DNA from: Lautropia sp. SCN 69-89
GTDB lineage: Bacteria; Pseudomonadota; Gammaproteobacteria; Burkholderiales; Burkholderiaceae_E
Direction of reading: 5' to 3'
Length of the DNA: 64,000 bases
NCBI GenBank assembly: GCA_001724855.1
Contig: MEED01000001.1
Span: forward strand, 124,001-188,000
Part shown: positions 1,540 through 61,625 of the stretch, piece after piece
Numbering within the stretch: the stretch's first letter is position 1
How the letters are laid out: each line of letters begins with the position of its first letter
Position numbers and translations under genes: made by a program
Notes under the pieces: generated by a model
The model's input: only the letters and a program-made list of their open reading frames with translations
Told to the model about the DNA's origin: nothing
Databases searched by the model: none

Positions 1540-1863
1540 GTGTCATTCGTGAAAACCGTTACCGCAGCGCTCGTAGCGAGCCTCTCACTGCCCGTCTTCG
1601 CGGGGCTCGATTTCTGGCTCATCGAGAAGGCGCGCAGCGCACGCCAGGCAGAAGCTCAACGCTCGGGCTCCGACTCGAAAAATGCAGCCGGTTGCCCCCC
1701 GGACAGGCTCGTACTGCCGCTGGATCACGGCCCTCGCGCGCAAACGACGCCCTATCTGAACGAACGGCGCAAACAGCGATACGAGGAGCAACTGCGCAAT
1801 TGTGAGAGTGCGCGAATTCCGGCCGCCCCAGCTGCTTCAGGATCCACAGGCGGCGCGGGCTGA
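1540..1863 (+). CDS. Small exported protein of unknown function
   Basis: 107 residues, starting at GTG 1540 behind a good GGAGGA site. Residues 1-21 are a clear Sec signal peptide ending VFA, so the product should be periplasmic. The mature part is polar, rich in Arg/Glu/Ser, with two Cys and an Ala/Gly/Ser/Pro-rich tail. I recognise no family. Its position divergent from a copper ATPase with a copper box between them suggests a metal-stress role; that is inference from context. Confidence 0.6.
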   Translation: MSFVKTVTAALVASLSLPVFAGLDFWLIEKARSARQAEAQRSGSDSKNAAGCPPDRLVLPLDHGPRAQTTPYLNERRKQRYEEQLRNCESARIPAAPAASGSTGGAG

Positions 1864-2779: not shown

Positions 2780-2797
2780 GATTACACAAACGTAATC
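2780..2797. promoter_or_regulatory. Putative copper-response box (site 2)
   Basis: GATTACACAAACGTAATC is a perfect 6-6-6 inverted repeat between the divergent methyltransferase and cusF genes. It is the most symmetric GATTAC/GTAATC copy in the window, so it defines the half-site best. Confidence 0.65.
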
Positions 2798-21487: not shown

Positions 21488-23350
21488 TCATGCGACGACC
21501 ACCTCCCGGAACATTCCGGCATCCATGTGGAAGGCCAGATGGCAATGCCAGGCCCAACGACCCAGAGCGTCGGCCGTCACCAGGAAGCTGATTCGCTGTG
21601 CCGGCTGAACCGGAATCGTATGGCGGCGAGCAAGGAATCGCCCCTCGGGGCTCTCTAGCTCGCTCCACAGGCCGTGAAGGTGCATCGGGTGGGTCATCAT
21701 CGTGTCGTTGTGGAGGATCACGCGAGCCCGCTCTCCGTAGCGAAGCCTCACCGGCGTGGAGCTTCCGAACTCCTGGCCGTCGAACGACCAGGTATAGCGC
21801 TCCATGTTGCCGGTCAGATGCAGTTCAATCTCGCGCTCCGCGCCACGCGGATCAAGAGGTCCGCCCGTCGTCTGAAGGTCCGCGAGGGTCAAGACACGCC
21901 TGCCGTTGTTCCGGAGTCCTACCCCGGGGTCATCGAGGTTGCGGCGCGGCATGTCCACCCGCATGTCGGTGCTCGGGCCATACTCGGTTCGCGCATGCCT
22001 GACCAGGCTGCTCGCGGCGGATGCGCCAGTCATCCCCCCATGCATCCCGCCATGCATTGCGCCATGCATCCCCGCGTGCATGCCGCCGTGCTGGTCTCCG
22101 CTTCCTGTGCCAGGCGACCTCGACTTCCGTGCGGCGTCGCCATGATCGACGCCTTTGCCATGGTCCATTTCGCCCATCATGTCCGCCATCGACAGCCATT
22201 GGGGAGGATCCAGGGCCGGCACCTCTGCGGACAAGCCGGCGCGGGTGGCCAGAGTGCCCCGCGCGTAGCCGGTTCGCTCCATCGCTTGCGCGAAGATCGT
22301 GTAGGCCTCGTCGCGAGGCCGAACGATGACGTCGTAGGTTTCGCCAGGGCCGAAGCGAAACTCATCGACGCTCACTGGCTCGACGTCGACGCCATCTGCC
22401 TGCACCACCGTAAGCTTCAATCCCGGTATCCGGACATCGTAGAAAGTATTCGCCGCGCCGTTGATGAAGCGCAAACGGACGCGTTCGCCGGGAATGAACA
22501 CCCCGGTCCAGTTGCCCGCAGGGGTTACGCCGTTCATCAGGTAGGTGAGCGTGTGCGCGGACAGATCCGCCAGATCGGTGGGGTTCATCCGCATCTGGTT
22601 CCACATACGTCGTTCGTCGAGCGCCGCCGAGAGCCCATGTCGCTTCGCAGCGCGAATGAAGTTTCCCAGGGTGGGTTGATTGAAGTTGTAGTAGTCCCCC
22701 TGAACCTTCAGCTTCGCGAACACCCGCATCGGGTCTTCGTCGGTCCAGTCCGACAGTTGAACCACGTATGCACGATCGGAACCATGCCTCTCGCCGTAAC
22801 GGGGCTCGATCACGATCGCGCCGTACATGCCGGTCTGCTCCTGCATGCCCGAATGCGAGTGATACCAATAGGTGCCGCTTTGCTCGACCTTGAATTGATA
22901 GGTGAAGGTCTCTCCAGGAGCGATTCCTGCAAAGCTGATCCCCGGTACCCCGTCCATCTGAAACGGCAGGATGATGCCGTGCCAGTGAATCGACGTGGCC
23001 TCGCGAAGGCGGTTCGTGACGCGTATGGTGACGGTATCGCCTTCCCGCCAGTGCAAGGTGGGGCCAGGAATCGAGCCATTGATCGTCGTGGCCATCCTCA
23101 CGGAGCCGGTGAAATTGACCGGATTCTCGGCGATGACAAGATCGAACTCCGTACCGCGCAGCACGGGCGCAGTGCCCGTGGCGCTCGCTTCCGGGCGCGC
23201 CCAGGCGCGAGCGTTGAGGGCAAGTGATCCGGCAAGCACCCCGCCCGCGGCGAGGCCGTGCACGAAGCGACGCCTCGGGATAGCGATCGCGGATACGTGT
23301 CGTTGGAGTGGAAGCATGCGGCAAGGATCCATGGCGTGTTCTGGAGCCAC
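21488..23350 (-). CDS. copA: CopA multicopper oxidase (periplasmic, Tat-exported)
   Basis: 620 residues in the longest form. Twin-arginine signal RRRFVHGLAAGG, then three cupredoxin domains. Copper ligands are visible: SIHWHGI and YWYHSHSG in domain 1, THPMHLHGLW and WAWHCHLAFHMDAGM in domain 3. A Met/His-rich insert (repeated GGMH/GAMH, ~residues 387-450) should hold extra copper. It oxidises Cu(I) and sequesters copper in the periplasm. The start is uncertain: GTG 23350, ATG 23332 or ATG 23317 all precede the Tat motif. A symmetric copper box lies 41 bp upstream of 23350. Paralogue at 45739-47604. Confidence 0.92.
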   Translation of the reverse strand: MAPEHAMDPCRMLPLQRHVSAIAIPRRRFVHGLAAGGVLAGSLALNARAWARPEASATGTAPVLRGTEFDLVIAENPVNFTGSVRMATTINGSIPGPTLHWREGDTVTIRVTNRLREATSIHWHGIILPFQMDGVPGISFAGIAPGETFTYQFKVEQSGTYWYHSHSGMQEQTGMYGAIVIEPRYGERHGSDRAYVVQLSDWTDEDPMRVFAKLKVQGDYYNFNQPTLGNFIRAAKRHGLSAALDERRMWNQMRMNPTDLADLSAHTLTYLMNGVTPAGNWTGVFIPGERVRLRFINGAANTFYDVRIPGLKLTVVQADGVDVEPVSVDEFRFGPGETYDVIVRPRDEAYTIFAQAMERTGYARGTLATRAGLSAEVPALDPPQWLSMADMMGEMDHGKGVDHGDAARKSRSPGTGSGDQHGGMHAGMHGAMHGGMHGGMTGASAASSLVRHARTEYGPSTDMRVDMPRRNLDDPGVGLRNNGRRVLTLADLQTTGGPLDPRGAEREIELHLTGNMERYTWSFDGQEFGSSTPVRLRYGERARVILHNDTMMTHPMHLHGLWSELESPEGRFLARRHTIPVQPAQRISFLVTADALGRWAWHCHLAFHMDAGMFREVVVA

Positions 23351-23387
23351 GGATCCTATGGGCGCGCCGCTGTCGGTCTGCTGACGT

Positions 23388-23735
23388 CTACATTACCAAT
23401 TCGTAATGGACGGGGTGGCGCATCTGCCGGCTGTGCATGGCGCCGCCGTCAGGCACAGTCGCCTTGCCATCCCGAAGCCGCTTGTTGAGCGATTCTTCGG
23501 ATTCCGACATTCGGCGAAAGCTCGCGTCGTACCCCGCGGCGGCCAGTGCGATGATCATCGTCACGACCCCATACCGGTTCGAGTGCGAACGCGGGCGGTG
23601 CCGCCGGCGGGCGGTGCCGCCGAACAGTTCGACGGAAACCGAAACAACTCCGGGGATGTCTTGCAGCGAGCGGGTAACCGATGCCACGCACGATCCGCAG
23701 TTCATGCCGAGCACGTTCAGTTCGACTCCATTCAC
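23388..23735 (-). CDS. Small HMA-domain metal-binding protein (CopZ-like, variant)
   Basis: 115 residues. The HMA opening LNVLGMNCGSCVASVTRSLQDIPGVVSVSVEL contains the GMxCxxC Cu(I)/Hg(II) site, and the end IALAAAGYDASF fits the last helix and strand. The middle is odd: a basic stretch GTARRRHRPRSHSN replaces the usual short loop and strand. A 40-residue tail follows the domain. The start is GTG 23735 with GGAG 6 bases ahead. No signal peptide, so a cytoplasmic chaperone is likely. Its last codons overlap the copper box that serves copA. Confidence 0.7.
   Translation of the reverse strand: MNGVELNVLGMNCGSCVASVTRSLQDIPGVVSVSVELFGGTARRRHRPRSHSNRYGVVTMIIALAAAGYDASFRRMSESEESLNKRLRDGKATVPDGGAMHSRQMRHPVHYELVM
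23391..23408. promoter_or_regulatory. Putative copper-response box (site 3), inside the end of the HMA gene
   Basis: CATTACCAATTCGTAATG, a perfect 6-6-6 inverted repeat, 41 bp upstream of the longest copA oxidase start. It also encodes the final residues HYELVM of the upstream HMA protein. Core ATTAC-N6-GTAAT matches the other boxes. Confidence 0.6.
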
Positions 23736-23784
23736 GGGATCTCCAGGACGAAGCGAGAGGCTCAAGAGCGGAAGCCCCCCCGTT

Positions 23785-47780: not shown

Positions 47781-47798
47781 GATGAACGCAATGTAATC
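47781..47798 (-). promoter_or_regulatory. Putative copper-response box (site 5)
   Basis: On the minus strand GATTACATTGCGTTCATC, close to sites 1 and 7. It lies 125 bp upstream of the DUF4148-like gene at 47923. Confidence 0.6.
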
Positions 47799-47922: not shown

Positions 47923-48255
47923 ATGACCTCGAAAGCCCTGCTTCTCGCCGCGTTCGCGTTGTCGGTAAGCGCCCCCGCATTCGCGAGCAACGGCGCCACG
48001 TTCGTGAACAACGAAATTGGCTGGGAAACACACGCGACGCCGAGCACGAAGAGCCGTGCCGAAGTCGTTGCTGAATTGAAGGCCGCGCAAGATGCGGGCG
48101 TCCTCGCAAACTCGTACGAGTTTCCGGCAGCGACGAAGGCTTCTCCTTCCAAGCTCAGCCGTGAGGGGGTCCAGCGCGGCGTCACCGAAATGACCGACGC
48201 CGAGCGCGATGCCGTACACCGCATCTACGGCCCGGTGCACGGCCGCGATTCTTGA
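47923..48255 (+). CDS. DUF4148-like small exported protein (copy 1)
   Basis: 110 residues. Signal peptide (1-22, ending AFA), then SNGATFVNNEIGWETHATPSTKSRAEVVAELKAAQDAG, which has the TRAEV..EL..A..AG pattern of DUF4148 proteins common in Burkholderiales. The C-terminus ends AVHRIYGPVHG. A clear paralogue is at 58092-58427 (same VNNEIG, RAxVxAEL, HRxYGPxH). Both are preceded by a copper box at the same distance (~112-125 bp), so both are probably copper-induced. Function unknown. Confidence 0.75.
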   Translation: MTSKALLLAAFALSVSAPAFASNGATFVNNEIGWETHATPSTKSRAEVVAELKAAQDAGVLANSYEFPAATKASPSKLSREGVQRGVTEMTDAERDAVHRIYGPVHGRDS

Positions 48256-54030: not shown

Positions 54031-54175
54031 GCAGAGGCGCAATACCCTCGTCGGAAGCGGTCCGCGACGGTTTCGCTTTGGGAGCTGCGTCGCACGCGTC
54101 CGGGCACAAGCGTTGCGCGCGACGAACAACCGTGGCAGTAACATTTCCGGTTCCGATCACTACAATCGGACACCA

Positions 54176-54583
54176 ATGAGAGCCTTCCGCCGTTCGGTCT
54201 TTGCCTGGATTGCGCTGCTCGGGATCCTGTTCACGCAGTTCGCAGTGGCCGCATACGCGTGCCCGTCGTTGCCGCATACGACAAGCGAACAGACTCTGGC
54301 TGCGTCCGACTCGCACGGACTTCCCTGCCCGGAGATGGCGACGCAATCAAACGGCGCGTTCGATGCGCAATCGCCGGACCTTTGCAACGAGCACTGCGCG
54401 CGCGACGGGCAAACCTCCGAATCGCGGTCGGTTGCCCCCATTCACCAGACGTTTGTCCTGGCCTTCGTTCTTCCCGCACCGGATCCTTCCGAACTCGCAG
54501 GCGTGAGACACGCGCAACAGCCCGAATTGCTGCGACCCACCACACCACCCCCTCTTTGGCGCACCGGTCGGCTGCGCATTTGA
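54176..54583 (+). CDS. Small exported Cys-containing protein, unknown function
   Basis: 135 residues. Signal segment MRAFRRSVFAWIALLGILFTQFAVAAYAC, then four further Cys and several His (HGLPCPEM, DLCNEHCARD), and a second hydrophobic stretch TFVLAFVLPAP. Similar small proteins (DUF2946-like in form) occur near copper genes. ATG 54176 fits the signal. Function unknown. Confidence 0.6.
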   Translation: MRAFRRSVFAWIALLGILFTQFAVAAYACPSLPHTTSEQTLAASDSHGLPCPEMATQSNGAFDAQSPDLCNEHCARDGQTSESRSVAPIHQTFVLAFVLPAPDPSELAGVRHAQQPELLRPTTPPPLWRTGRLRI

Positions 54584-54740
54584 TCCTGCGGTGTGCGGTG
54601 TAACGCCCGCTGGTGAAGCCGCGCCCGCTTCGCGGCAACGGAACGACCTGCTCCCGCTGATCAGCGCGAACGCAAGCCGTTCGCTCGCCTCAACTCCTTC
54701 AGCGGCCAGGCAGCTTTTTCATCGACGACCAAGGATCGAC

Positions 54741-55650
54741 ATGCTCTCCAGAAAGAAGGGCTTTCACGCCTTCCCGCTCGCGCTGGCACTGACGGTGTTC
54801 GCCACAACAGTGTTTGCCGACCCTGCGATCACGCTGACGCACGTTCACGGCCTGTCCTACAGCGCGGACGGTTCAGCAACTCCTCATTCCCAGCCACCAT
54901 GGCCTCGCCATGTTCAGCGAGGGGCGCTGGTCCAGGGCTGCAGGCCCTGCGCACGACTACATGGGCTTCTCGGCGACGCGCGATGCGTTGTACAGCAGCG
55001 GCCATCCGGCGCCGCGCTCCGGACTGCCGAATCCGTTCGGCCTCATCAAGAGCAAGGACGGAGGAAAAACGTGGCAGAAACTCGGCCTGGAGGGCGAGTC
55101 TGATTTCCACTCGCTGGCGACCAGCCACAGGACCAACACGGTGTACGTGTTCAACCCGCACCCGAACTCGCGCATGAAGCAGTCCGGCATCTACTACACG
55201 CGCAATGACGGCCTGCAGTGGAAGCGCGCTGCGGCCCGGGGGCTGAGCGGAGAGCTGAACAGTCTCGCTGTGCATCCCACCGATTCCGGCGTCGTGGCCG
55301 CCGGTACTGAGCAGGGCCTGTATCTGTCGCGCGACGCCGGTGAGAACTTCGAGCAACTCGTGGGCGAGATGCGCGTATTCGCCGAAGCCTTCGACCTCGA
55401 CGGCCAGCAGCTGTGGTTCAGCACGTATGCCGGCAAGGCGGAGCTTGCCCGCATCGCGTTGAAGCCCGGCACCGCACCAGAAGCGCTTTCGATCCCCGCG
55501 GTAGGTGAAGACGCGGTGGCCTACATCGCGCAGAACCCGGTGCAGCCCGACGAGTTCGCGATTGCGACCTTCAAACGAAGCGTCTTCGTTAGCGAAGACC
55601 GGGGCCGAAGCTGGACGCAGATTGCCAGGGACGGAGCGACGCTCCCGTGA
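54741..55650 (+). pseudogene. Frameshifted BNR/sialidase-like beta-propeller protein, exported
   Basis: Starts at ATG 54741 (AAGG site), signal peptide ending VFA, then ITLTHVHGLSYSADG. At 54872-54873 an extra T breaks the frame; removing it gives DGQQLLIPSHHGLAMFSEG and the reading continues to 55650. Repeated SKDGGKTWQKL, TRNDGLQWKRA, SRDAGENFEQL and SEDRGRSWTQI are BNR/Asp-box repeats of a six-bladed propeller. Such proteins (annotated F510_1955/exo-sialidase-like) occur next to copper oxidase genes; the role is unknown. Pseudogene or a sequencing error. Confidence 0.75.
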
Positions 55651-55780: not shown

Positions 55781-55817
55781 GCCCGTCGGCTGCGCCAACG
55801 GATTGGGGATCGATCTC

Positions 55818-57473
55818 ATGGACCATCGAAGGCGACGCGTCGTCGTCGGCACCGCCACCGCTGCAGCCGCCGCCACGCTCGGGCTGCCGCAATCGGGCGC
55901 ACGCGCCGAGCACAAGGAGGAGGCCGACACCGGTGTCGACATCCACATCGAGCTGCATGCGGTGCAGGAACATCTCGCTCTTCGTCCGGGCGCCCCGACT
56001 CGGGTATGGCGCTACCGCGGCAAGGTGCTAAGAGGTGATGCAAGCACGCTCGAGGCGTCCGATGCCACGTATCTCGGGCCGATCATCCGGGTGCGCCGCG
56101 GCCAGCGCGTGCGGATCGACCTGATCAACGAACTGCCGGAGCCGACAATCGTTCATTGGCACGGCCTGCACGTTCCCGACACGATGGACGGGCATCCACG
56201 CCATGCAATCGCACCCGGCCAACGCTACGTCTACCAGTTCACCGTGTTGAACAGAGCGGGCAGCTACTGGTTCCACCCGCATCCGCATGGTCGGACAGGC
56301 GCACAGGTCTACTTCGGTCTGGCCGGGCTGTTCCTGGTCAGCGACGACGAGGAAGCGGCGCTTGGGCTGCCCAGCGGCCGATACGATATTCCACTCGTCG
56401 TGCAGGACCGCAGCTTCGACGGCGACAACCAGTTCGTCTACCTGGGGTCGAGTCTGCTCGACAGCTCTCCCACCGACAACCTGGACCAGCCCCCGATGAT
56501 GGGCGGTGCAATGATGGGCGGCGGAATGATGGGCCGCGGCATGATGCGCGACGGCATGGGCTCGATGATGGGGCGCATGATGGGTGTGCTCGGCGACGAC
56601 ATCCTCGTCAACGGCAGACCCAGCGCCAGCCTCTCGGTCGAGCGGCGTCCCTATCGCCTGCGAGTGCTCAACGGTTCCAACACGCGCACTTACAAGCTTG
56701 CCTGGCACGATGGCTCGCCACTGATCGTGATCGGCACCGACGGCGGGCTTCTGGCAGCACCCGTGCGGCGTGATTACGTCATGCTCGCGCCGGCAGAGCG
56801 CCTTGATCTATGGGTGGATTTCGCTCGCTGGGCCGCAGGCAGCCAACTGTCGCTGCAAAGCCTAGCCTTCAATGGCGGAATGAACATGGGCGGCATGATG
56901 ATGGGCCGGGCGGCGCTGCCCGACGGCGCGCCGTTCCGGGTGCTCGCGCTGCGCGTCGAGGACGGCTCACAGGGCGCGCAGGAGATAGCGCCGCCGGCAC
57001 GCCTGTCCGAGGTGCCATCACCGAACCCGAGCGTAGCCGTCAACTTCGATCGCCCGAAGATCTTCGAGCTCACGATGGGAATGATGGCTTGGGGAATCAA
57101 CGGTCAGAGCTTCGAGATGCTCGATGCCCGTCCGTACGAGACCGTCCGGCTCGGCACCCACGAGCTATGGGAATTCCGCAACGACGCAACGAGCGGGATG
57201 ATTGGCATGGCGATGCCCCATTCGATGCATGTGCACGGCGTGCAGTTTCGAGTCATCGATCGCTCGGTCTCGAGCCGATTCGCCGGTTATCGCAACACCG
57301 TAGACGCGGGCTTCGTCGACGACGGCTGGAAGGACACCGTACTGGTGATGCCGGGCGAGCGTGTTCGCATCCTGGTGCACTTCGCCGACTACCCGGGACT
57401 GTTCCTGTACCACTGTCACATGCTTGAACACGAGGACGGCGGCATGATGCGCAATTACAGGGTGATGGTGTAG
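55818..57473 (+). CDS. CueO/CotA-type multicopper oxidase
   Basis: 551 residues. Tat-like signal HRRRRVVVGTATAAAAATLG. Copper ligands: IVHWHGLHVP, YWFHPHPHG, HSMHVHGVQF and LYHCHMLEHEDGGMM. A Met-rich insert (MMGGAMMGGGMMGRGMM at ~residues 230-255) recalls the Cu(I)-substrate region of CueO. It oxidises Cu(I) to Cu(II) in the periplasm. It is of a different subfamily from the two CopA oxidases (single-chain, shorter). A smaller Met cluster (NMGGMMMG) follows at ~355. Confidence 0.9.
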   Translation: MDHRRRRVVVGTATAAAAATLGLPQSGARAEHKEEADTGVDIHIELHAVQEHLALRPGAPTRVWRYRGKVLRGDASTLEASDATYLGPIIRVRRGQRVRIDLINELPEPTIVHWHGLHVPDTMDGHPRHAIAPGQRYVYQFTVLNRAGSYWFHPHPHGRTGAQVYFGLAGLFLVSDDEEAALGLPSGRYDIPLVVQDRSFDGDNQFVYLGSSLLDSSPTDNLDQPPMMGGAMMGGGMMGRGMMRDGMGSMMGRMMGVLGDDILVNGRPSASLSVERRPYRLRVLNGSNTRTYKLAWHDGSPLIVIGTDGGLLAAPVRRDYVMLAPAERLDLWVDFARWAAGSQLSLQSLAFNGGMNMGGMMMGRAALPDGAPFRVLALRVEDGSQGAQEIAPPARLSEVPSPNPSVAVNFDRPKIFELTMGMMAWGINGQSFEMLDARPYETVRLGTHELWEFRNDATSGMIGMAMPHSMHVHGVQFRVIDRSVSSRFAGYRNTVDAGFVDDGWKDTVLVMPGERVRILVHFADYPGLFLYHCHMLEHEDGGMMRNYRVMV

Positions 57474-57961: not shown

Positions 57962-57979
57962 CATGATTCAGATGTAATC
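57962..57979 (-). promoter_or_regulatory. Putative copper-response box (site 6)
   Basis: On the minus strand GATTACATCTGAATCATG, 112 bp upstream of the second DUF4148-like gene. Confidence 0.55.
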
Positions 57980-58091: not shown

Positions 58092-58427
58092 ATGCCCTCG
58101 AAAGCCTTGTTGTTCGCAGGAGTCGTGTTGTCTGTGAGCCTGCCCGCCTTCGCCGACAGTGGCGTCGAATTCGTGAACAACGAGATCGGATTCCAGACGA
58201 CCCATGTGACTCCGAGCAAGACGACGCGCGCGCAAGTGACCGCCGAACTGCAGGCCGCACAGCGCGCCGGAAGCATTCCGGGTTCGTTCGAATTCGTCGC
58301 GGCGAAGGAGGCGTCGGCATCCTCAACGACGCGGGAGCAAATTCAGCGCGAAGCATCCCAAGCGACGCGAGCCGAGCGTGAGGCAGCCCACCGGCTGTAC
58401 GGGCCCGATCACGCTCTCGAGTCCTGA
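58092..58427 (+). CDS. DUF4148-like small exported protein (copy 2)
   Basis: 111 residues. Signal peptide ends AFAD, then SGVEFVNNEIGFQTTHVTPSKTTRAQVTAELQAAQRAG and a C-terminus AHRLYGPDHALES. Paralogue of 47923-48255 over its whole length. 71 bp upstream of the phospholipase-D-type gene, probably one transcript under the box at 57962. Confidence 0.75.
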   Translation: MPSKALLFAGVVLSVSLPAFADSGVEFVNNEIGFQTTHVTPSKTTRAQVTAELQAAQRAGSIPGSFEFVAAKEASASSTTREQIQREASQATRAEREAAHRLYGPDHALES

Positions 58428-58498: not shown

Positions 58499-59584
58499 AT
58501 GCCCATCGAGCCAGGGAGCGGGGCGTCGGGGCTGTCGAGGGTCTACATCGAGGGCGATCTCCTGTTCGACGACATGCTGCGCGACATCGAGTGCGCGCAG
58601 CGAAGCGTTCGGTTCGAGAGCTACATCTTCACTTCCGACCCGGTCGGCCGGCAATTCGTCGATACGTTGGCCCGTTGCGCCACGAGGGGTCTGGACGTGC
58701 GATTGCGCGTCGATCACCTTGGTTCCTGGCGCGATCTCTCCAATGCGGATATCGAGCGACTGCGGGCGGGCGGAGTTCACTTCGAATGGAGCCGGCCCTG
58801 GAGCGTTCGTCGGCCGCTTGCAATCAACCGACGCAACCATCGGAAGCTGCTCGTGGTGGACGAGGCGATCGCGTATGTCGGCGGCTTCAATGTCCATGCG
58901 GCCAGTTCGCTGCGGTCGTTCGGGTCCGCCCGCTGGCGCGATACGCACGTTCGGTTCGTCGGCAAACCGGCTGCCGCGGCTGCGATGGTTTTCGACTGCT
59001 ACCGCGACGTCCCACCCGACTGGCTGCCACCGGTGACCGGCTCGCTATGGCTGCTGCCGAATCGCTCGCGCGCATGCCGCCACCGGCTGCGGTGCGTCCT
59101 CAATGACACGATGATCGCGGCGCGCTCGCGCATCTGGGTAACCACTCCGTACTTCGTGCCCGACAGCCGCACCCAGCGACTGATGCGCGAGGCAGCGGTG
59201 CGTGGCGTCGACGTCCTGCTGCTCGTCCCCGGGAATAGCGATGTGCCGCTGGCCCAGTGGGCGGCTCGTGCGGCCTATTCCCGCCTGCTGTCCTGCGGCG
59301 TGCGGATCTTCGAGTACGTTCCTCGGGTTCTCCACGCGAAAACGCTGCTCGTGGACGACCGGTGGGCGACCGTCGGTACTGCCAACCTCGACTATCGAAG
59401 TCTTTTCGTCAACGACGAGCTGAACTTGATGGACGAATCCGGAGAATTGAACGCCTTACTGGCGGAGAGCTTCCTCGCGGCCCTGTGCGAAGCCGAGCCG
59501 ATACGCGCCCACGCGTGGAGCCAGAGGAAGTGGCCGCGGCGCGTCGCCGAATCGATCGGTTGGTGGGCGCGTCGATGGCTGTAA
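58499..59584 (+). CDS. Cardiolipin-synthase-like phospholipase D family protein
   Basis: 361 residues with two HKD motifs: NHRKLLVVDEAIAYVGGFN and HAKTLLVDDRWATVGTAN, as in bacterial cardiolipin synthases (ClsB type, without N-terminal membrane helices). It would join phosphatidyl groups to make cardiolipin in the inner membrane. The inter-motif segment (VTTPYFVPDSR) is typical. It follows the DUF4148-like gene and a copper box, so envelope remodelling in metal stress is a reasonable inference. The real substrate is not certain. Confidence 0.85.
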   Translation: MPIEPGSGASGLSRVYIEGDLLFDDMLRDIECAQRSVRFESYIFTSDPVGRQFVDTLARCATRGLDVRLRVDHLGSWRDLSNADIERLRAGGVHFEWSRPWSVRRPLAINRRNHRKLLVVDEAIAYVGGFNVHAASSLRSFGSARWRDTHVRFVGKPAAAAAMVFDCYRDVPPDWLPPVTGSLWLLPNRSRACRHRLRCVLNDTMIAARSRIWVTTPYFVPDSRTQRLMREAAVRGVDVLLLVPGNSDVPLAQWAARAAYSRLLSCGVRIFEYVPRVLHAKTLLVDDRWATVGTANLDYRSLFVNDELNLMDESGELNALLAESFLAALCEAEPIRAHAWSQRKWPRRVAESIGWWARRWL

Positions 59585-59892
59585 ACAGACCCGTACGGCA
59601 TTCCCGGTCGGCGGTGCTCCTTCCGGTCGCTGCGCGGCTTCCACGGTCCGCCCTGCAGTGATCCGATTTCACCTGGCTTGCAGGGCAAGGATATATCCGC
59701 GTCACAGGCCACCATCGCCATTGCAATAGCGGTTTTGGCAGCAGTTCTCGCGACTTGAACGCCGCACCCGCTCGGAGGAACCGCGGAAGCGAACCCCGCC
59801 ACCCTGGGGGGGCATGCGCCGCTGTCGGAGGCGCACCGAAACCGAGCGGGCGGAAGGCGCTCGGTATCGATGCCGCAGCCGCTCCTGTGCGT
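59585..59892. other. Intergenic region, nothing recognised
   Basis: 308 bp between two convergent genes. No open frame with protein-like content, no clear terminator. Confidence 0.4.
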
Positions 59893-60249
59893 CTATCGTT
59901 TCTGTTGTTGATGCGGATGGTCCGGCATTTCGCCTTGGCCGCCCGGCATGTTCGCGCCACGGTGCGTCATCGTTTTGCCCGGGTCGGGCGATGCCGACGT
60001 ATGCGGGTGGTCGGGCATTTCGCCCTGACCGCCCGGCATGTTGGCGCCGCGATGCGTCATCGCCTTGCCTGAAGCCGGTAACTGGTTTTCCGGTGGGTAT
60101 GCGGAGCCTTCTCCGATCGGGAGGTACTGAATTCCGCTTCGTTGTTGGGCTTGCGCGAGGTCTGGCGCGTTCATGAACGTCGAATCGGGACCCGCAAAGA
60201 CCGGAGCGGTTACCGCGATCGCTACCGAAAACACTAGAAACCTGTGCAT
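59893..60249 (-). CDS. Exported Met/His-rich protein with a duplicated motif
   Basis: 118 residues. Signal peptide MHRFLVFSVAIAVTAPVFAG, then a variable part (IQYLPIGEGSAYPPENQLPASG) and two copies, 30 residues apart, of MTHRGANMPGGQGEMPDHPH. Each copy carries three Met and three His, a good Cu(I)/Cu(II) ligand set. The copper box at 60361-60378 lies 112 bp upstream. A periplasmic copper buffer is inferred. I do not recognise the family. Confidence 0.7.
   Translation of the reverse strand: MHRFLVFSVAIAVTAPVFAGPDSTFMNAPDLAQAQQRSGIQYLPIGEGSAYPPENQLPASGKAMTHRGANMPGGQGEMPDHPHTSASPDPGKTMTHRGANMPGGQGEMPDHPHQQQKR
59911..60068 (-). repeat. Tandem 90-bp repeat inside the Met/His-rich gene
   Basis: Two units of ~68 bp (59911-59978, 60001-60068) at a 90-bp period encode the repeated peptide. 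They differ at several third positions, so the duplication is not very recent. Confidence 0.65.
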
Positions 60250-60360
60250 GACACGAACTCCTATCGGACTCGGGGGAACCCGTGAGTCGAAACCGGGTCG
60301 GCGGCAACGCGCCGATGCCGCCAAATTGCGCCTTCGTGCCCGACACGAAAGTGTTCGGCC

Positions 60361-60378
60361 GATTACATTTCGGTCACG
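60361..60378. promoter_or_regulatory. Putative copper-response box (site 7)
   Basis: GATTACATTTCGGTCACG, very close to site 1. It lies between the leftward Met/His-rich gene and the rightward alcohol dehydrogenase (147 bp upstream of its start), so it could control both. Confidence 0.6.
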
Positions 60379-60524
60379 TAGCGGCCAGGCGCGTTTCAGG
60401 AAGTCGTGCAAAGGAAAAATCGAAGATTACGGAGTGGCAATGAGACGGTCATCCTCGCGTTCCCTCTGCTCGGGATACTGATGGCTGTCCGTTTGCTATC
60501 GATTTGCCGATCAAGGAGTTTTTC

Positions 60525-61625
60525 ATGCCCGCGATGATGAGAGCAGCCGTGTTCGTCGAGCCAGGCCGCATCGAACTGGCCGACAAGCCCATCCCCGACG
60601 TCGGCCCCAACGATGCGCTGATCCGCATCACCACGACGACAATCTGCGGCACCGACGTGCACATCCTGAAGGGTGAATACCCGGTGGCCAAGGGGCTGAC
60701 AATCGGGCACGAGCCGGTCGGCGTCATCGAGAAACTGGGCAGCGCCGTGCAGGGCTACACCGAAGGCCAGCGTGTGATCGCCGGCGCGATCTGCCCGAAC
60801 TTCAATTCCTACGCCGCGCAGGACGGCGCCCCGTCGCAGGACGGAAGCTATCTGGCGGCGAGGGGTCAGTGCGGCCACCATGGCTACAAGGCGACGGCGG
60901 GCTGGCGCTTCGGCAATCTGATCGACGGCACCCAGGCCGAGTACGTGCTCGTGCCCGACGCGCAAGGCAATCTCGCGCCGATTCCCGAAGGGCTCACCGA
61001 CGAGCAGGTGCTGATGTGCCCGGACATCATGTCCACGGGGTTCAAGGGCGCCGAGAACGCCGGTGTGCGAATCGGCGACACGGTGGTCGTGTTCGCGCAG
61101 GGGCCGATCGGGCTGTGCGCGACCGCCGGAGCCAGACTGCTGGGCGCGACGACCATCATCGCAGTGGACGGCAACGACCACCGATTGGACATCGCGAAGA
61201 AGATGGGCGCCGACGTTGTGCTCAACTTCCGCAACACCGACGTCGTCGACGAGGTGATGAAGCTCACTCACGGCCGAGGCGCCGACGCGTCGATCGAGGC
61301 GCTCGGCACGCAAGGCACCTTCGAGTCGGCGCTGCGGGTGCTCAAGCCGGGGGGCACGCTGTCGAGCCTCGGCGTGTATTCAAACGACTTGAAGATTCCG
61401 GTGTCGGCCTTCGCCGCTGGTCTCGGCGATCACCGGATCGTCACCGCCTTGTGCCCTGGCGGCAAGGAGCGGATGCGTCGCCTGATGAACGTGGTGGCAT
61501 CGGGCCGCATCGACCTCGGCGTGCTGGTCACGCACGAGTACAAGCTCGATGACATCGTGGCGGCCTACGAGTTGTTCGCGAACCAGCGAGACGGAGTCCT
61601 GAAGATCGCGATCAAGCCTCGTTGA
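60525..61625 (+). CDS. Zinc-dependent alcohol dehydrogenase (MDR family)
   Basis: 366 residues from ATG 60525 with AAGGAG 6-7 bases upstream. Catalytic-zinc region TTICGTDVHILKG and GHEPVGVIEKLG; nucleotide fold VVVFAQGPIGLCATAGARLLGA. The loop CPNFNSYAAQDGAPSQDGSYLAARGQCGHHGY lacks the four-Cys structural zinc lobe, as in secondary-alcohol/isopropanol dehydrogenases. It interconverts an alcohol and its aldehyde or ketone using NAD(P). Heads the metabolic block that continues with GAPDH and PGK. Confidence 0.87.
   Translation: MPAMMRAAVFVEPGRIELADKPIPDVGPNDALIRITTTTICGTDVHILKGEYPVAKGLTIGHEPVGVIEKLGSAVQGYTEGQRVIAGAICPNFNSYAAQDGAPSQDGSYLAARGQCGHHGYKATAGWRFGNLIDGTQAEYVLVPDAQGNLAPIPEGLTDEQVLMCPDIMSTGFKGAENAGVRIGDTVVVFAQGPIGLCATAGARLLGATTIIAVDGNDHRLDIAKKMGADVVLNFRNTDVVDEVMKLTHGRGADASIEALGTQGTFESALRVLKPGGTLSSLGVYSNDLKIPVSAFAAGLGDHRIVTALCPGGKERMRRLMNVVASGRIDLGVLVTHEYKLDDIVAAYELFANQRDGVLKIAIKPR

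Follow-up and report, generated by a model that had tools for sequence, protein, structure and literature searches.

A repeat-built Met/His protein of Lautropia that appears to descend from the DUF4148 family, a candidate copper/silver sponge of the periplasm

How does a short exported protein come to end in two copies of the same Met/His-rich sequence, and what might such a protein do in the periplasm? The question is raised by a gene of Lautropia sp. SCN 69-89, located in a stretch of 64,000 nucleotides of contig MEED01000001.1 (positions 124,001 to 188,000) that is called the window throughout. Small periplasmic sponges for copper and silver readily escape notice, since their short, fast-diverging sequences do not match any family model.

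The gene is real, conserved and built from a repeat. Its open reading frame starts with ATG and encodes a protein with 8 Met, 7 His and no Cys (Table 1), in which the 20-residue sequence MTHRGANMPGGQGEMPDHPH, hereafter the unit, contributes three Met and three His per copy. The first-pass annotation had described two identical units of this composition spaced by 30 residues, and this description is correct: the copies start 30 residues apart, and within the mature protein the longest stretch that is repeated exactly comprises 20 residues as compared to at most 6 in 1000 residue shuffles. The N-terminus, read by eye, resembles a signal peptide that ends in VFA, followed by G. No Pfam family matches the protein at E ≤ 1, and the single NCBIfam line (E 0.32, far under the cut-off) was rejected as chance. 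The protein is indeed exported-looking and unclassified, as had been proposed. Tandem Repeats Finder does not report the repeat, probably because there are just about two diverged copies. AlphaFold2, working from a two-row alignment, gave a mean pLDDT of 55.3, too low for a reliable structure, and a scan of 59580-60560 for the sigma-70 consensus yielded no promoter-like site.

Table 1. Coordinates of the unit gene, its parts and related features in the window
Feature	Position	Strand	Remarks
Unit-protein coding sequence	59893..60249	-	118 aa; signal peptide, linker apparently derived from DUF4148, two Met/His units, tail QQQKR
Likely signal peptide	60193..60249	-	residues 1-19, MHRFLVFSVAIAVTAPVFA; by eye
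Linker	60061..60192	-	residues 20-63 (44 residues); QAQQRSGIQYLPIGEGSAYP aligns with the end of DUF4148 in G008, QAQRRSGVQYAEVGEDSSYP
Unit 1	60001..60060	-	residues 64-83, MTHRGANMPGGQGEMPDHPH
Unit 2	59911..59970	-	residues 94-113, amino acids identical to unit 1
AGGAG, resembling a ribosome-binding site	60258..60262	-	few bases 5' of the ATG; from the sequence
Box of the unit gene	60362..60377	-	16 bp, GTGACCGAAATGTAAT; 2 mismatches to ATKACANNNNTGTMAT; 112 bp before the ATG
DUF4148 gene	58092..58427	+	Pfam 4.9e-11; 1.5 kb from the unit gene
Box of this DUF4148 gene	57963..57978		2 mismatches; 113 bp before the gene
Second DUF4148 gene	47923..48255	+	Pfam 3.3e-9; divergent from a copA oxidase gene
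Box of the copA/DUF4148 divergent pair	47782-47797		
Box before cusF-cusCBA	2781..2796		1 mismatch; reference site of the regulon
Box before copA oxidase	23392		
Two boxes before ORF 1540	1385, 1419		1 and 2 mismatches, respectively
Multicopper oxidase	55803..57473	+	Pfam above cut-off; best NCBIfam model, CueO, under its cut-off; nearest clear copper enzyme

How widely is the protein distributed? Four of the 18 genomes of the genus, several of which are incomplete, contain the unit: that of the window and three others, G002 (with a contig of Burkholderiales bacterium 70-64), G008 and G016. Its absence from the remaining 14 marks the unit protein as accessory. G002 encodes a protein-identical copy as well as the closest paralogue, G002b (L024:12147-12506, 74% identical in protein), with two units each, and an 8.4-kb contig filed under another organism, which may be misbinned, encodes the same protein with DNA 98.2% identical over 3.4 kb (L004). 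The comparison of repeat number among homologues that the first reading had called for gave one unit in G008, two in the window protein, two in G002b and three, the first of them degenerate, in G016; among the few copies compared, unit number did not vary inside a species. Like the window protein, its three distinct relatives are devoid of Cys.

In the genomes sampled the unit protein is restricted to one genus. Searches with the exact DNA pattern found the unit in none of 56 other genomes of the family and only in its own genome among 369 of the class, and a profile of the unit matched 2 of 399 genomes of the order, both inside the genus, and 1 of 398 genomes of the phylum, its own. A scan of genome contigs with peptides of the window protein, which is blind to divergent relatives such as those in G008 and G016, matched 23 stretches; in two of these a relative was encoded, each time with 100% identity in protein. 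Viral contigs gave no match, and among solved structures no sequence relative was found. The genus search reached 11 of the 18 genomes at E ≤ 1, and dropping 17 of its 27 rows (E 0.08-0.97) as chance left the four named above; in a search of 61 genomes, 28 of which matched at E ≤ 0.1, only the strong rows were kept (G000, G002, G008, G016) and the remaining ones (E 0.001-0.1, 25-45% identity) were treated as chance. Among plasmids, seven tblastn matches in Rhizobium (E 0.09, 39% identity over 43% of the query) and two weak ones in an Acidovorax stretch (E 0.003 and 0.074) were taken as chance as well, and tblastn with the G016 and G008 proteins gave none.

Are the units under selection? The two units of the window gene differ at 7 of 60 bases, and all 7 differences are synonymous with none being non-synonymous, which indicates that the repeat is a selected protein sequence and not a fresh DNA duplication; the duplication looks old. 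When the window gene is compared with G002b, 25 codons in the units are identical, 14 silently altered and one changed, as opposed to 30 identical, 18 silent and 30 changed codons elsewhere. This contrast between silent and changed codons (14/1 versus 18/30; Fisher p = 0.0002) indicates that the units are held while the remainder of the protein drifts. The two units of G002b itself are only 3 bases apart, so copying or homogenisation of units inside one gene may also occur.

Across the eight distinct units, counted without the protein-identical copy of G002, nine of the 20 positions are invariant, namely P9, G10, Q12, G13, M15, P16, D17, P19 and H20. Only two of these are Met or His, and the frame of Pro, Gly, Gln and Asp is therefore conserved at least as strictly as the ligands. 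The first-pass annotation had let its copper proposal depend on conservation of the Met/His positions in homologues, and these are kept: M15 and H20 in all eight units, M1, M8 and H18 in seven and H3 in six, whereby the degenerate unit of G016 explains the missing M1, M8 and H18 and one of the two missing H3. That the unit reflects chance composition in a drifting lineage-specific orphan, as the lack of a recognised family and the narrow range in the genomes sampled might suggest, is already disfavoured and hardly credible in view of the selection on the units, the independent copies with the same unit and the promoter layout that these copies share.

Where does the protein come from? The homologue in G008 matches DUF4148 (PF13663), a domain of unknown function, over residues 4-73 (4.3e-9, 37.1 bits against a cut-off of 27) and then carries a single C-terminal unit, whereas the other DUF4148 proteins that were read have no unit. 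In tblastn comparisons its first 57 residues are 52-55% identical to DUF4148 proteins of G002, and across linker and unit it is 38-43% identical to the unit proteins of G002. Pfam finds no DUF4148 match at E ≤ 1 in the window protein, G002b or the G016 protein; the window protein is short of about 19 DUF4148 residues just before QAQQRSGIQYLPIGEGSAYP, and the G016 protein retains no recognisable DUF4148 portion. It is by way of the domain-bearing homologue that common descent with DUF4148 can be traced, and judged from sequence comparison the unit protein appears to descend from this family. The earlier suggestion that the protein may be new stands insofar as it belongs to no recognised family, but it does not seem to be purely new. 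DUF4148 genes also occur nearby, in the window (Table 1) and, at a distance of about 2 kb, beside G002b; close to the unit gene of G016 there is a DUF4148-like stretch (L025 979-1215, E 1e-9).

One may go further and imagine, tentatively, that a metal-regulated DUF4148 scaffold turned into a modular copper sponge by addition of a 20-residue HPH/Met unit, which then multiplied from one to two and three as the scaffold decayed. If this were true, unit number would set metal capacity, and some DUF4148 proteins would be metal-stress proteins of the periplasm. The consulted parts of papers that name both DUF4148 and copper contain no description of such a link, and a literature text search for MPDHPH returned none.

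What switches the gene on? AgrR, a silver-resistance regulator of C. metallidurans, also binds the copA2-copR2 region, and the part of the report consulted gives ATKACANNNNTGTMAT as its consensus (PMC7380067); a GTAAT half-site is common to CopR, CusR and CzcR of Pseudomonas according to the consulted part of a further source (PMC11195947). A box of this type precedes the unit gene (Table 1), with its TGTAAT half intact and the other half poor, and is placed between the unit gene and a divergent dehydrogenase gene, which it could also serve. The window contains nine boxes with at most 2 mismatches as compared to a mean of 1.4 and a maximum of 5 in 60 Markov controls, and 48 of 2000 random 200-base segments reach this level; seven of the nine precede genes, and two (17054 and 53639) lie inside ORFs. 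The enrichment supports the claim of the first reading that the gene lies downstream of a copper box, and the upstream site makes the gene a predicted member of a CopR/CusR/AgrR regulon. Perhaps another member of the metal regulon is the small exported-looking ORF at 1540-1863 (+), which has a GTG start and lacks a Pfam match.

In all four unit genes a TGTAAT/TGTAAC half-site precedes the ATG; it ends at a distance of 112 bp in the window gene, 112 bp in G002b, 108 bp in the G016 gene and 119 bp in the G008 gene, and in none of the 96 window ORFs of at least 200 aa is one found in the slot of 100-130 bp, for which its density predicts 0.002 per slot. Measured against the whole consensus these positions have 2, 3, 5 and 3 mismatches, respectively; in G016 only the half-site remains, and the G008 gene has a site with 2 mismatches at 175 bp in addition to that at 119 bp. 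In G002b and G016 the half-site stays with the unit gene despite different neighbours. Three of the four DUF4148 genes in the window's genome have a box as well, at 113, 125 and 116 bp, the one on contig C8 being without. The supposition that every DUF4148 gene carries a box failed, as it holds for these 3 of 4 and, among eight loci from three further genomes of the order, for two (L058 and L059, each with a 1-mismatch box within 150 bp; two second matches in the same frames were dropped from the count). All four unit genes have this layout in common with a subset of DUF4148 genes, which supports a shared ancestry of both gene and promoter. On plasmid p1-T1 of Acidovorax sp. T1 a DUF4148 gene follows genes for a copper oxidase, a cupredoxin and a copper-binding protein (L051, 2682-6309), with a 2-mismatch site 113 bp before its ATG.

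A stricter palindrome, GATTACANNNNTGTAATC, has five sites with at most 2 mismatches in the window's own genome and none for the reversed control. The box of the unit gene is absent from these five, as it has 4 mismatches, all in one half. Two of them are window sites, upstream of cusF and of ORF 1540; the others precede a response-regulator gene (L044) and a TolC/efflux-like locus (L045, by eye) or adjoin a thiolase-like gene that has a P-type ATPase end nearby (L046, by eye), where the site may be chance. At L044:3000-5108, on contig C1 and outside the window, one open frame joins a response-regulator receiver domain to a CusS-type sensor domain; the usual DNA-binding part was not recognised in the stretch searched, and the frame is read as a copR/copS pair that is broken or fused. 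In L025 (~1990-2010) the G016 unit gene is preceded by the inverted repeat TACCCCCACACTATGGGGG, which we take to resemble a CsoR-type operator.

Which metal would such a promoter answer to? The unit gene is 2.4 kb from the multicopper oxidase gene, and the window also contains cusF together with cusCBA, as well as two CopA-type oxidases that score over cut-off. The directly adjoining genes, for a cardiolipin-synthase-like protein and the divergent zinc-type dehydrogenase, are not copper genes. In G008 the unit gene separates a copper P-type ATPase and CusF from cusCBA-type genes, a heavy-metal response regulator as well as a sensor kinase being found nearby, and in G016 it is located on a 3.8-kb contig that also bears the end of a Cu P-ATPase. 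No copper gene adjoins G002b; its neighbour is an ftsH-like gene, recognised by eye, and the oxidase lies about 8 kb away. Copper genes are thus near three separate unit genes. The units could nevertheless bind another metal first (silver, mercury, gold, nickel or zinc), copper being a matter of the neighbourhood only: the box consensus comes from a silver-resistance regulator (PMC7380067), and the consulted parts of both promoter studies indicate that Cu- and Zn-responsive regulators have a site of such kind in common (PMC7380067, PMC11195947). The window moreover contains a ZntA-like ATPase gene and, by eye, a MerA-like one, but in the stretches examined it is copper genes that are shared by the three unit-gene loci. 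Met-rich sites, in addition, favour Cu(I) and Ag(I), and this alternative is quite improbable. As the ligand we infer copper rather than silver.

Three further features of these surroundings were recorded. Bases 21797-23773 of the window are 100% identical over 1977 bases to L026:1-1977 of G008, while other stretches of L026 that match the window are 70-84% identical, so that the shared copA segment looks like a recent transfer. A glycosylhydrolase-like ORF of F510_1955 type (54591-55650, NF045728) has its N-terminal part in another frame, and its counterpart in G002 is uninterrupted (314 aa, L024:1569-2513). A small exported-looking ORF with scattered Cys, Met and His follows the MerA-like gene (54113-54583, by eye) and has neither a Pfam match at E ≤ 0.01 nor an NCBIfam match at E ≤ 1.

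How could the protein act? We consider it probable that the unit protein is an exported periplasmic copper/silver sponge that is induced by metal stress and derives from DUF4148. Under copper or silver stress a response regulator of the CopR/CusR type would switch the gene on, the protein would be exported to the periplasm, and its flexible C-terminal MTHRGANMPGGQGEMPDHPH units would bind Cu(I), and probably Ag(I), via Met thioethers and His, whereas the HPH pairs may possibly bind Cu(II). The protein would then serve as sponge or hand-over depot until multicopper oxidases oxidise the metal or CusCBA exports it. As to its origin, a metal-regulated DUF4148 protein would have gained one C-terminal unit, a state kept in G008, and later the unit would have multiplied and the DUF4148 core been lost.

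The strictly conserved frame of the unit suggests an alternative, namely that the protein is a metallochaperone whose units hand copper to one partner, such as CusB/CusF, a CopA-type oxidase or an outer-membrane part, with the Pro/Gly/Gln/Asp frame as docking surface. The non-ligand residues P9, G10, Q12, G13, P16, D17 and P19 kept in 8/8 units, the G008 copy directly before cusCBA-type genes and the fusions of CusF domains to a CusB-type adaptor in G008 and in the window would all be compatible with such a partner. However, a unit number between 1 and 3 and immediate neighbours that are not the same from locus to locus fit a sponge better than one fixed partner, and we regard dedicated delivery as doubtful. 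The ancestry, in turn, invites the idea that the protein is a metal-regulated envelope-stress protein of DUF4148 type whose units do not serve metal at all but act, for example, through Met as sacrificial oxidant or through contact with the cell envelope. The many Met would suit this idea, as would descent from a domain of unknown function, and in Achromobacter both As(III) and Sb(III) induce an operon that encodes a DUF4148 protein, according to the consulted part of its description (PMC11719878), which we count in favour of the idea. But His is kept alongside Met (H20 in 8/8, H18 in 7/8 units), and it is the units that are constrained while the part derived from DUF4148 drifts or is lost, so that a role in envelope stress without metal is unlikely.

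If the protein is a sponge, a single genus displays plausible steps from a metal-regulated exported protein to the addition of one Met/His unit and on to forms with two and three units. The series of one to three units is a natural set for asking whether metal capacity is set by the number of units; growth of capacity by added units, as first suggested from the repeat, is an attractive hypothesis. Moreover, DUF4148 would thereby be linked to the copper/silver response in the lineage studied, as far as genomic sequence can indicate.

How does the unit protein compare with known systems? CopK of C. metallidurans is, by annotation and sequence, likewise a small periplasmic Met-containing copper binder, but it is without a repeat unit and gave no tblastn match. 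Bufferins, copper peptides modified by MNIO enzymes, are small exported copper-handling peptides as well and use modified Cys, in contrast to the window protein and its three distinct relatives. Nothing useful on SilE, CopK, CopJ or CopQ came from PMC10304878.

CopQ/PrsQ of Cupriavidus are small exported repeat proteins linked to the metal response (PMC2864759, PMC7380067, PMC7563307, each as far as consulted), metal-induced and lineage-restricted with 3-4 copies of a short motif (PMC2864759, same part), and prsQ2 is listed as AgrR target in the part consulted of the AgrR report (PMC7380067). An ORF of pMOL30 that is annotated as hypothetical and fits the description of CopQ repeats RDPFTDGAHSMG. 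Its RDxxTDG-based unit is unrelated in sequence to that of the window protein: when the window and ten loci were searched in six frames, RDxxTDG turned up solely in pMOL30 (L050), thus not in the window protein, and tblastn of the four unit proteins against 37 kb of pMOL30 gave nothing at E ≤ 0.1.

SilE and PcoE are small exported Met/His-rich proteins with repeated Met/His motifs, as is the window protein. In the consulted part of its description SilE is a disordered Met/His silver binder, and PcoE, which is controlled by CusRS, is believed to be unstructured without metal (PMC5008109). A disorder that gives way to folding upon metal binding is characteristic of the pair, with six Ag+ bound per SilE and up to nine Cu+ per PcoE. 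They contain ten His each, whereas the unit of the window protein arranges MxH, MxxH and HxH with Pro/Gly turns, and the motifs MxxHxxxxxHxxMxx and HxxMxxxHxxMxx given for SilE in the same part (PMC5008109) were absent from the 118 aa on reading. Pfam, solved structures and tblastn with pMOL30 gave no homology to SilE/PcoE or CopQ/PrsQ, SilE and PcoE being compared by the motifs published for SilE. By analogy, and without detectable homology to them, we judge the unit protein to be a lineage-specific sponge that may work like SilE, PcoE or CopQ.
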